DNA of 8,050 nt from Deltaproteobacteria bacterium RBG_13_61_14 (GTDB lineage: Bacteria > RBG-13-61-14). Positions 5,445 through 8,050 of the stretch are shown piece after piece; positions within the stretch are counted from its first letter, which is position 1; each line of letters starts with the position of its first letter. The DNA lies in assembly GCA_001797815.1 (NCBI GenBank), contig MGQK01000063.1:15432-23481 (forward strand), read 5' to 3'. The notes under the pieces are model-generated. The model did no database searches. It was given only the letters and a program-made list of their open reading frames with translations, and was not told the DNA's origin. The position numbers and the translations under genes are program-made.

Positions 5445-5663
5445 ATGCCCCTTTACGAGTATCATTGTCCGAAGTGCGGTTGCGACTTCGAGGAACTGGT
5501 GAGCAGCAGCGCGGTCAAGGTGGCCTGCCCCGAATGCGGGGCCAAGAAAGTCAACAAGCTGATGAGCCTGTTCGCCCACCAGAGCGGGGGCAAATTCAGC
5601 GGCACCAGCGGCTCGAGCTGCAGCGGCTGCACCAGTTCCAACTGCTCGACCTGCGGACATTAG
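5445..5663 (+). CDS. FmdB-family zinc-ribbon protein
   Basis: This 72-residue protein starts MPLYEYHCPKCG, the hallmark of the FmdB zinc-ribbon family (named for a putative regulator of formamidase; function largely unknown). One zinc site is formed by Cys8, Cys11, Cys28 and Cys31. After a Gly/Ser-rich linker the tail holds two more CxxC pairs, Cys59/Cys62 and Cys67/Cys70, ending CSTCGH. Such Cys-rich tails are common in the family, so a second metal site is plausible. The ATG at 5445 is chosen over the in-frame ATG at 5424 because AGGAG (5433-5437) is 7 nt upstream and family members begin MPxYEY. It is divergent from the SDR gene with a 120-bp shared upstream region. It is followed after 70 bp by the deoxynucleoside kinase, which has its own promoter-like sequence. 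Confidence 0.85.
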   Translation: MPLYEYHCPKCGCDFEELVSSSAVKVACPECGAKKVNKLMSLFAHQSGGKFSGTSGSSCSGCTSSNCSTCGH

Positions 5664-5672
5664 GCCCGGTCT

Positions 5673-5687
5673 TTCTTGACGCAAGAA
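5673..5687. promoter_or_regulatory. Small palindrome over the kinase -35 region
   Basis: TTCTTG (5673-5678) and CAAGAA (5682-5687) are exact inverted repeats around ACG and overlap the predicted -35 hexamer at 5676-5681. The position suits a repressor site; it could also be a weak transcript end for the FmdB gene. Confidence 0.3.
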
Positions 5688-5705
5688 CGCCTTTTATGCT
5701 ATAAA
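5676..5705 (+). promoter_or_regulatory. Sigma70-like promoter for the dnk-panB-panC operon
   Basis: TTGACG (5676-5681) and TATAAA (5700-5705) are separated by 18 bp; each matches five of six consensus bases. The predicted start near 5712 leaves a leader of about 22 nt before the GTG at 5734. It is the best promoter-like sequence in the window. Confidence 0.55.
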
Positions 5706-5733
5706 TCTCGCAGGGTGCGGCGGCGGGGCGGGA

Positions 5734-6402
5734 GTGGAAAAAGCAGGCAGCGGACCGGCGGCCAAGGAACCGCGCTATCTTGCGATTGAAGGCCCGATCG
5801 GCGTGGGCAAGACCAGCCTGGCCGAGCGGGTGGCCGAGGTGCTCGGGGCGCGGCTGGTCAAGGAGCCGGCGGACGAAAACCCGTTCCTGCCCGGGTTTTA
5901 CCAGGATCCGCGGCGCTACGCTTTTCCGGCGCAGGTGTTCTTTTTACTCAACCGCTACCGGCAGCAGCAGGAATTGGCCCAGCAGGACCTGTTTGCGCAG
6001 AGCACGGTGGCGGATTACCTGTTCGACAAGGACCGGATCTTCGCGCACCTCAACCTGAGCGACAGCGAGCTCGAGCTTTACGAGCAGATCTACGGCTCGC
6101 TCAACCTGCGGGTGGTGCGGCCGGACCTGGTGATTTACTTGCAGGCGCGGCCCAAGGTGCTGTTGGAGCGGATCAAGCGCCGGGCCACGCCCTATGAGAA
6201 GAACCTGGACTTGAAATACCTCGAGCGCCTGAGCGCGGCATACGGCGATTACTTTTTCTATTACAACCAGACGCCGCTTTTGTCGGTGGATACCAGCGAG
6301 ATAGATTTCCTGGAGCGGGAGGAGGATTTCCAGGCCCTGGTCAAGGAGATCAAAACCGCCAAGGGCGGGACCCAGCATTTTAATCCGCTTGGATCCAGGT
6401 GA
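5734..6402 (+). CDS. Deoxynucleoside kinase (dAK/dGK family)
   Basis: This 222-residue cytoplasmic kinase phosphorylates purine deoxynucleosides (probably deoxyadenosine or deoxyguanosine) to monophosphates for salvage. It shows the Walker A loop GPIGVGKT (20-27), KEPADENPFL with Glu44 at the base-catalyst position of the family, RYAFPAQVFFLLNRYRQQQE (61-80), TVADYLFDKDRIFA (91-104) and the LID segment RIKRRATPYEKN (146-157). The sequence follows the bacterial dNK pattern closely. The start is GTG at 5734; no ATG, GTG or TTG lies upstream in frame back to the promoter. The ribosome-binding site is only a G-rich run. The N-terminal 13 residues before YLAIEG are longer than usual and low in conservation. 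Which deoxynucleoside is preferred cannot be read from the sequence. The stop codon lies in the loop of a small hairpin. A panB gene follows 188 bp later, an arrangement I recall from several bacterial groups. Confidence 0.9.
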   Translation: MEKAGSGPAAKEPRYLAIEGPIGVGKTSLAERVAEVLGARLVKEPADENPFLPGFYQDPRRYAFPAQVFFLLNRYRQQQELAQQDLFAQSTVADYLFDKDRIFAHLNLSDSELELYEQIYGSLNLRVVRPDLVIYLQARPKVLLERIKRRATPYEKNLDLKYLERLSAAYGDYFFYYNQTPLLSVDTSEIDFLEREEDFQALVKEIKTAKGGTQHFNPLGSR

Positions 6403-6495
6403 CTGGACCGAGACCGATTGCGCTTCTGGGTAAACCCTGTTTCTTGCCGACCGGGCCGGTAACCCGAAAGGGTAGCGGACCTGGAAAGACAAGGA
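6388..6495 (+). promoter_or_regulatory. Structured RNA leader of panB, possible pan RNA motif
   Basis: Two hairpins lie in tandem. Hairpin 1 (6388-6412): TCCAG (6394-6398) and CTGGA (6403-6407) close a GTGA tetraloop, A6393 is bulged, and the stem continues as CTTGG with CCGAG. Hairpin 2 (6451-6484): ACCC (6462-6465) and GGGT (6470-6473) close a GAAA tetraloop. Below them are U-A pair 6460/6474 with A6461 bulged, a G-G mismatch, CCG with CGG, bulged A6479, then CCGGG with CCTGG. An outer helix TTCTTG (6441-6446) with CAAGGA (6490-6495) is possible. From memory, the described pan motif is a stem with two conserved bulged adenosines, often in tandem, in leaders of pantothenate genes including deltaproteobacterial ones. 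The position directly before panB and a terminator fits. I could not compare it with the published consensus, so the family name is tentative. Confidence 0.42.
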
Positions 6496-6509
6496 CGAAG
6501 TTTGCAAGC

Positions 6510-6544
6510 AAGCCTTCCGGTCAAAGTCCGGAGGGCTTTTTTTT
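6510..6544 (+). terminator. Intrinsic terminator between dnk and panB (probable attenuator)
   Basis: AAGCCTTCCGG (6510-6520, including A6510) pairs with CCGGAGGGCTT (6528-6538), with one G-U pair and a 7-nt loop, followed by eight Ts (6537-6544). This is the only textbook rho-independent terminator in the window. Only 46 nt separate it from panB, and much of that is a palindrome, so panB most likely depends on read-through. Confidence 0.85.
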
Positions 6545-6547
6545 CAA

Positions 6548-6573
6548 TGGTCACAGGTTAAAAACCTGTGCCA
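6548..6573. repeat. Palindrome between the terminator and panB
   Basis: CACAGGTT (6552-6559) and AACCTGTG (6563-6570) pair perfectly around AAA. The stem extends to TGG (6548-6550) with CCA (6571-6573) across bulged T6551. It ends 5 bases before the AAGGAG of panB. It looks like a further dispersed palindrome inserted into the leader rather than a regulatory part, though it could affect ribosome access. Confidence 0.6.
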
Positions 6574-6590
6574 CTGAAAAGGAGTAAGCA

Positions 6591-7418
6591 GTGAAAAAAG
6601 TCACGATTTTGGACGTTCAGGCCATGAAGGACCGGGGCGAGAAGATCACCATGCTCACCGCCTACGATTACGCTTTCGGCAAGATCGTGGACGCCTGCGG
6701 GGTGGACATCATCCTGGTCGGCGACTCGGTGGGCACGGTGGTGCAGGGGGTGGCCAACACCCTGCCGGTGACCATGGAGGAGATGATCTACCACACCCGG
6801 ATGGTGGCCCGGGGCCGCGCGCGGGCGCTCCTGGTCTTTGACATGCCTTTCATGAGCTACCAGGAGAGCGTGGAGCAGGCGCGCCGGAACGCCGGCCGGG
6901 CCATCAAGGAGAGCGGCGCCGAGGCGGTGAAGCTCGAGGGCGGGGAGAACGTGGCCGAGGCGATTGCGGCGATTGTCAACATGGACGTGCCGGTGATGGC
7001 CCACATCGGGCTGACGCCCCAGTCGGTGCACCGGATGGGCGGCTTCAAGGTCCAGGGCCGCGAGGCCAAGCAGCGGAAGAAACTTTTGGCCGATGCCAAG
7101 GCGGTGGAAGACGCCGGCGCCTTTGCCGTGGTGCTGGAATGCGTCCCGGCCGAGCTCGCGGCCGAGATCACCCGGAGGCTCAAGATCCCCACCATCGGGA
7201 TCGGCTCCGGCATCCGCTGCGACGGCCAAGTGCTGGTGATCCACGACCTGCTCGGGCTTTACACCGACCGCAAGATCAGCTTTGTCAAGCAATACGTGAA
7301 CCTGAACCAGGCGATCGTCAAAGCGGTGGTCACTTACCTGGACGAGGTGCGGCGGGGCGCGTTCCCGGGCAAAGAGCATACATTCTTCATGAAACCAAAG
7401 AAAAGGACTAAAAAGTAG
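6591..7418 (+). CDS. panB: 3-methyl-2-oxobutanoate hydroxymethyltransferase (ketopantoate hydroxymethyltransferase)
   Basis: This 275-residue cytoplasmic enzyme transfers a hydroxymethyl group from 5,10-methylenetetrahydrofolate to 3-methyl-2-oxobutanoate to make ketopantoate, the first committed step to pantothenate and CoA. Metal-binding Asp45 (VGDSVG) and Asp84 (VFDMPF) match E. coli Asp45 and Asp84. Lys114 in VKLEGG and Glu183 in LECVP occupy the substrate and catalytic positions. [11 protein letters not shown] (137-147) and [14 protein letters not shown] (203-216) are also typical. Length is near the 264 residues of E. coli PanB, with a basic tail KPKKRTKK. The start is GTG at 6591 with AAGGAG (6579-6584) 6 nt upstream. 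panC follows after 38 bp. The upstream RNA structure and terminator suggest control by transcription attenuation. No panD or panE is in the window. Confidence 0.95.
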
Positions 7419-7456: not shown

Positions 7457-8050
7457 ATGGAAATTATTTCAGAACTGAAAGAGATGCAGGCGCGGGCCGA
7501 GGCGCTACGGCTCCAGGGCAAGCGGCTCGGGTGCGTGCCGACCATGGGCGCGCTGCACGAGGGGCACCTTCAGCTGATGCGCGAGGCCAAGCGGCGGAGC
7601 GACGTGGTTGCGGCCTCGGTGTTCGTGAACCCCGCCCAGTTCGCGCCCACCGAGGACCTGGCCAAGTATCCGCGCGACCGGGAGGGCGACCTGAGGAAAA
7701 TGGAGTCGGCCGGGGTGGACATCGCCTTTTTTCCGAGTGCGGAGGCCATGTATCCGGCTGGCGCGCAGACCTGGGTGACGGTGGAGGAGATCAGCCGGGA
7801 GCTGGAAGGCGCGAGCCGGCCCACGCACTTCCGGGGCGTGACCACGGTAGTGCTGAAGCTCTTTGCCCTGATGAAGCCGCACCTCGCGGTCTTCGGCCAG
7901 AAGGATTTTCAGCAGCTCAAGGTGATCGAGCGCATGGTCAAGGATCTGGACCTGGATATCGAGATCGTAGGGCACCCGACCGTGCGCGAGCCGGACGGCC
8001 TGGCCATGTCCAGCCGCAACCGCTACCTGAGCCCGGAAGAGCGCCGGCAG
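7457..8050 (+). CDS. panC: Pantothenate synthetase (pantoate-beta-alanine ligase), 5' part
   Basis: The first 198 codons are present and the frame runs off the window; family members are about 280 residues. The enzyme joins pantoate and beta-alanine with ATP through a pantoyl-adenylate intermediate. It belongs to the HIGH-type nucleotidyltransferase superfamily. PTMGALHEGHL (28-38) holds the ATP-binding HxGH (His34, His37). VFVNPAQF (55-62), THFRGV (123-128), VFGQKDFQQL (145-154) and the KMSKS-like MSSRNRYLS (184-192) follow in order. The ATG at 7457 gives the standard N-terminus MEIISELKEM, but there is no recognisable ribosome-binding site. Translation may depend on coupling to panB or on another initiation mode. 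It acts downstream of PanB, with ketopantoate reductase needed in between but not encoded here. Confidence 0.95.
   Translation, partial: MEIISELKEMQARAEALRLQGKRLGCVPTMGALHEGHLQLMREAKRRSDVVAASVFVNPAQFAPTEDLAKYPRDREGDLRKMESAGVDIAFFPSAEAMYPAGAQTWVTVEEISRELEGASRPTHFRGVTTVVLKLFALMKPHLAVFGQKDFQQLKVIERMVKDLDLDIEIVGHPTVREPDGLAMSSRNRYLSPEERRQ

Follow-up and report, generated by a model that had tools for sequence, protein, structure and literature searches.

A pan-type RNA leader as a probable transcription attenuator of panB-panC, with the opened pan strand as candidate antiterminator

The leader of panB-panC in Deltaproteobacteria bacterium RBG_13_61_14 contains a canonical unit of the pan motif, a second, degenerate unit and an intrinsic terminator, and we consider it probable (around 0.7) that this RNA is a transcription attenuator of both genes, in which the opened pan strand would act as antiterminator. 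The window, i.e. the whole stretch of 8,050 nucleotides analysed (contig MGQK01000063.1), was compared with some 50 relatives, and the comparison suggests that RNA folding decides whether the B5 genes are read. According to this proposal, a transcript running through the deoxynucleoside kinase gene dNK, or starting inside it, would make pan hairpins A and B and then the terminator. As long as a putative regulatory protein or metabolite keeps the canonical hairpin folded, its 3' strand and tail would be barred from downstream pairing, the terminator would form and panBC would be off; once the hairpin is opened, its 3' strand would pair with the terminator 5' arm, giving the antiterminator, and the polymerase would read into panBC. 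We infer that these two structures switch in the cell, with the folded state being the off state, and the signal would presumably be feedback on pantothenate/CoA synthesis. The pan motif was described in 2010 without a mechanism, and the match between its 3' strand and the terminator offers a concrete switch that can be mutated and that predicts the sign of regulation (folded meaning off).

Features are listed in Table 1. The Pfam domains give the gene order dNK-panB-panC, and the two bulged-A hairpins, the terminator and the panB start were all found where an earlier note, made from the sequence alone, had placed them. Pan motifs stand 5' of panB, panC or aspartate decarboxylase operons, and both panB and panC lie downstream of unit A.

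Table 1. Features of the dNK-panB-panC locus (window positions).
Feature	Position	Strand	Basis or detail
dNK, deoxynucleoside kinase gene	5734..6402	+	Pfam PF01712, E 3.8e-42
Pan unit A, canonical	6385..6416	+	R1 and R2 covariance models, 11-pair covariation
Candidate antiterminator 5' strand, option 1 (unit A 3' arm, GACCG)	6412..6416	+	partner CGGUC 6518-6522, 5 bp
Pan unit B, degenerate	6453..6482	+	descriptor geometry, shuffle test, L005 homologue
Candidate antiterminator 5' strand, option 2 (unit B, GACC-U-GGAA)	6478..6486	+	partner UUCCGGUC 6515-6522
Intrinsic terminator	6510..6544	+	11-bp stem 6510-6520/6528-6538, 7-nt loop, T run
panB, ketopantoate hydroxymethyltransferase	6591..7418	+	PF02548, E 8.4e-117
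panC, pantoate-beta-alanine ligase	7460..8050, continues beyond window end	+	PF02569, E 1.7e-87

Hairpin 1 is a canonical pan-motif unit, as follows from its covariance-model scores, from covariation and from a homologue in a related leader. Its layout is CCG/CUUGG/A/UCC..GGA/CCGAG/A/CCG, with bulged A6393 and A6413 and 10 of 11 positions paired; the core at 6388-6412 reads CUUGG-A-UCCAG-GUGA-CUGGA-CCGAG, and beyond the second bulged A (6413) an outer stem (6385-6387/6414-6416) includes one C-C mismatch (6386/6415). The predicted fold has -14.6 kcal/mol, compared with a shuffle mean of -7.4, and 2 of 200 shuffles were equally stable. A geometric descriptor (3 bp, 5 bp, a bulged A and at least 3 bp, with the 3'-side bulged A before the last 3 bp) recovered a unit of this type 5' of panB in about 30 loci of other lineages. 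When 30 pan units were aligned, 95% of the cells were paired and five of the 11 pairs showed changes in both partners, values that slid and shuffled controls came nowhere near. The covariance model built from these 30 units (R1) scored unit A at 39.5 bits (E 3.6e-11, in the window), while a second model made without the window's phylum (R2) placed its best match in the 4.7-Mb genome at 6385-6416, directly 5' of panB (30.4 bits, E 8.3e-6). By R2, unit A carries the conserved pan-unit sequence (CYGCYUGGAUCC / GGACCGRGACRG), which unit B does not have. The same model also detected the counterpart of this unit in L005, the leader of panB in a genome from the window's order.

Hairpin 2, which has the layout GGG/CCGGU/A/ACCC-GAAA-GGGU/AGCGG/A/CCU (one G-G mismatch, 10 of 11 pairs), we take to be a probable degenerate pan unit placed after the canonical one. 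Its bulged A6461 and A6479 stand at pan spacing, an outer extension pairs CC 6451-6452 with GG 6483-6484, and the whole hairpin (6451-6484, GAAA loop) folds with -20.9 kcal/mol and a z-score of -1.95, modest taken singly. Neither R1 nor R2 detects it. In L005, unit A is likewise followed by a second unit, GGU/AACUG/A/ACC..GGA/CGGUU/A/ACC, which has the geometry of unit B with different letters and folds in that form by itself. A second unit with at least five G-C pairs by the descriptor, within 110 nt 3' of the canonical one, was present in 11 of 75 leaders, compared with 0.4 +- 0.6 in shuffles, and several of the 11 are close relatives, so that they represent perhaps four or five independent lineages. 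Most pan members are tandem, and here unit B would be the second member by its geometry and its L005 homologue, in an order that is the reverse of that in the Rfam model. Many of the leaders L133-L158, from the phylum of genome G007, have a second hairpin in common (such as CGGGGACCC..GGGCCUUAA), which follows unit A at a distance of about 29-32 nt; these leaders show further conserved sequence before panB.

The Rfam scan of the window at the gathering cut-off returned 0 matches. At a lax threshold RF01749 (pan) gave 17.3 bits against a gathering cut-off of 36.2, a curator's choice for a tandem model and not a biological feature. In that alignment the second hairpin of the model matches unit A nearly letter for letter (GCUUGGAUCC..GGACCGAGAC), while its first hairpin is absent and its place is taken by an unrelated stem. 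The Rfam model misses the locus because it expects another unit upstream, and the second unit lies here downstream; counting the lack of a covariance-model hit as refutation, as had been suggested, would misfire for the same reason, namely that the model was built with an upstream tandem unit. The cut-off was reached by five of 20 leaders that have a pan unit by R1, and the leaders L114 and L115, from the same order as the window, gave weak Rfam pan matches; the window's phylum entered the comparison with three genomes only. The locus is probably a pan attenuator in a two-unit, reversed-order layout missed by Rfam, the class itself being known. Most pan leaders with a single unit or with the reverse order escape the Rfam model, so that the family extends beyond what is recorded. 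The stem at 6363-6373, located inside dNK and used by the lax pan match, was rejected as a first unit, as it does not have the two-bulge geometry. Membership of the leader in PyrR was also discarded (17.9 bits at the lax threshold, with a cut-off of 54), and the remaining lax matches (mir-4679, Phe_leader, ctRNA), like that to PyrR, are due to chance or describe the terminator or a palindrome downstream of it.

As in attenuators, the first of the presumably regulated genes is preceded by an intrinsic terminator. Among the terminator-like sites on the + strand of 5600-6620 it ranks first, and its fold (6510-6538 plus the T run) has -19.5 kcal/mol and a z-score of -3.84. The whole leader (6384-6545) has a z-score of -3.73, to which hairpin 1 and the terminator contribute most, and 0 of 200 shuffles reached its stability. 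An explanation that we regard as unlikely is that this terminator merely ends the dNK transcript and panB has its own promoter, the pan hairpins acting elsewhere, e.g. on the stability of the mRNA or by binding a protein with no attenuation involved. The terminator does lie about 110 nt after a complete upstream gene, and a promoter could overlap it or the palindrome at 6552-6570. However, a search of 5600-6620 gave no sigma-70-like promoter, a negative of little weight in a genome so rich in G+C, and terminators before panB occur almost only together with pan, also in leaders whose upstream regions are quite different: within 190 nt 5' of panB, 28 of 40 pan-bearing leaders have one, compared with one of 60 pan-less leaders, and within 150 nt the figures are 26 of 40 and one of 60 (Fisher p 7e-13). 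A first scan had left nine of the 40 pan leaders without a terminator. The complementarity between the pan tail and the terminator 5' arm, described below, also speaks against an independent panB promoter.

The central evidence for attenuation comes from the family. In pan leaders, the 3' arm of the canonical unit plus the following bases (GACGGAAGG) is complementary to the terminator 5' arm (CCUUCCGUC and variants). Among 48 leaders, the duplex formed with the own terminator had a mean of -11.7 kcal/mol, compared with -10.4 +- 0.3 when terminators were swapped (0 of 5000 permutations), and a non-redundant set of 21 leaders with dissimilar terminators gave -11.7 versus -9.6 +- 0.5 (0 of 5000 permutations), counts that are optimistic even after thinning because members of one lineage are related. 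Tail positions change in step with their terminator partners (A-U, G-C, G-U), and in 24 of 31 leaders the tail pairs better than any other 15-mer between pan and terminator. Across the family, pan 3' strand and terminator 5' arm match each other beyond a permutation blind to relatedness. In L005, the leader of the nearest relative, the fold pairs the unit A 3' strand CGGAGG with the terminator strand CCUCCG, around unit B. Two Myxococcales leaders have no terminator, and in them the pan 3' strand directly adjoins the Shine-Dalgarno sequence (GACGGAGGTCGACATG in L076), an arrangement predicted to be off when folded by another route. The terminator and the Shine-Dalgarno arrangements both predict that the folded pan hairpin means off. 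In L074 and L087, pan units with a terminator and a matching tail are located about 1 kb upstream of panB, and the gene after the pan unit starts like a Rossmann-fold protein (MRKKVSIIGAGVVG, MKTVGIVG).

In the window, either unit A or unit B could supply the antiterminator strand, and we leave the choice between them uncertain. The earlier note had proposed CCTGGAA (6480-6486) pairing with TTCCGG (6515-6520); this pairing is present in the sequence and is part of a longer one, GACC(U)GGAA / TTCCGGTC (6515-6522), with eight pairs around one bulged U with a duplex energy of -10.9 kcal/mol, and taken alone it is within chance, with 113 of 500 shuffled targets pairing equally well. For the 5-bp unit A option, 79 of 500 shuffled targets did so. 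The evidence for an antiterminator that would exclude both sensor and terminator is strong in the family and weak in the window alone, and since the window pairing by itself fails shuffling, the mechanism is argued from the family. It is possible, and we hold it tentatively, that the 3' arm and tail of hairpin 2 are what switches, with unit A serving just for binding, which would be a variant of the mechanism we favour rather than its opposite. In addition to its longer pairing, unit B adjoins the terminator, the place that the canonical unit takes in Desulfuromonadia leaders. On the other hand, the related leader L005 folds with the unit A strand instead, the family-wide complementarity sits in the strand of the canonical unit, and the window pairing of unit B is within chance. 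The note's proposal of hairpin 2 as the switch is possible in the window, while it is the canonical 3' arm and tail that pair throughout the family, and hairpin 1 that pairs in the pre-terminator fold: in transcripts ending at 6523-6526, the minimum-energy structure contains option 1 (GACCG/CGGUC) with unit B enclosed, a topology like that of L005. The option 1 strand is at the position homologous to the family-wide pairing strand. For the terminator arm of the window, the tails of 24 other leaders are better pairing partners than the tail of its own unit A, and the family consensus tail fits it better as well. The minimum-energy fold of the full-length leader contains both pan units and the terminator, which means that the antiterminator has to be a kinetic structure or one of the unbound state. 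The broader proposal of a pan-type attenuator of panB-panC agrees with the match of unit A to pan, the dNK-panB-panC order and the family-wide pan-terminator/antiterminator architecture.

Unit A overlaps the end of the kinase gene. The last codons of dNK, CCG CTT GGA TCC AGG TGA (P L G S R stop), make up its 5' arm and loop, and the stop UGA (6400-6402) is within the GUGA loop. In the window and several further lineages, kinases overlapped by a pan unit end in PLGS or PLGT with no more than a few residues after it, and the stop codon falls in or next to the unit A loop in L010, L018, L069, L076, L131, L133-L158 and L182-L188. Most pan-less kinases have an aromatic-x-P before that point and no LGS, with L007 and L052 as exceptions. 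A canonical unit directly follows dNK in all seven genomes of the phylum of genome G037 (L163, L182-L188), five of the seven leaders having a terminator, and reading of the sequence by eye indicated that in L163/G037 the genes after dNK and pan are panC and panD, not panB. This overlap makes it conceivable that the ribosome ending dNK covers unit A and the antiterminator strand, so that dNK translation rather than a ligand would set the switch. The recurrence of this stop codon position across the window and leaders from several further lineages, and the conservation of the dNK-pan order where panC comes next, are in line with such coupling; we nevertheless think it very improbable, given that many pan leaders do not overlap dNK (L034-L068, L077, L087). 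In the phylum of genome G007, 61 of 77 genomes have a pan unit. A wider generalization, that pan would be a general attenuator, occurring in far more phyla than the literature records and acting in Myxococcota by blocking the Shine-Dalgarno sequence, with the sensing hairpin sometimes placed in the dNK end and stop codon, coupling the end of kinase translation to B5 expression, appears rather doubtful to us at present.

The pan motif (RF01749) was defined in Chloroflexi, Firmicutes and delta-Proteobacteria by its two bulged As and mostly tandem units, and was suggested to be a dimeric protein-binding motif; the main text does not connect pan with terminators or antiterminators (Weinberg et al., 2010; PMC2864571). 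The leader described here resembles RF01749 in having a stem with two conserved bulged As, a position 5' of panB/panC and two units, and differs in the position of its second unit, 3' of the canonical one, in its score below the cut-off and in its overlap with the upstream coding region. A conserved sequence 5' of panBC in Geobacter (Gmet_P1642, GSU1704.1) was noted in 2009 as a possible promoter or riboswitch (PMC2700814); the Geobacter argillaceus (L056) and Geomonas leaders in our set carry pan units, whereas that paper proposed no structure or mechanism. In Paenibacillus riograndensis, RNA-seq located an Rfam pan element within the 5' UTR transcribed ahead of panB-panC-panD, the same genes as here, and in the parts of that report available to us the element is an Rfam match without a mechanism (PMC5670726). 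Beyond that report, the literature searched yielded no later work on pan, and neither the antiterminator match nor the overlap with the kinase stop codon appears in the main texts consulted; earlier supplementary material may mention terminators.

PyrR-type leaders are attenuators with mutually exclusive terminator and antiterminator. The pan leaders would share with them a structured sensor strand that is also part of the antiterminator, and differ in that pan has no known ligand or binding protein.

Some other elements of the window deserve mention. Between the terminator and the panB ribosome-binding site, the palindrome CACAGGTTAAAAACCTGTG (6552-6570) is a dispersed repeat, with 11 exact copies and three one-mismatch copies in the genome and 0 matches to a reversed control pattern. 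An IS200/Y1-type transposase is encoded at 323-901 (PF01797) and may or may not mobilise this palindrome. Positions 998-2251 encode a protein that matches only the AICARFT part of PurH (PF01808).
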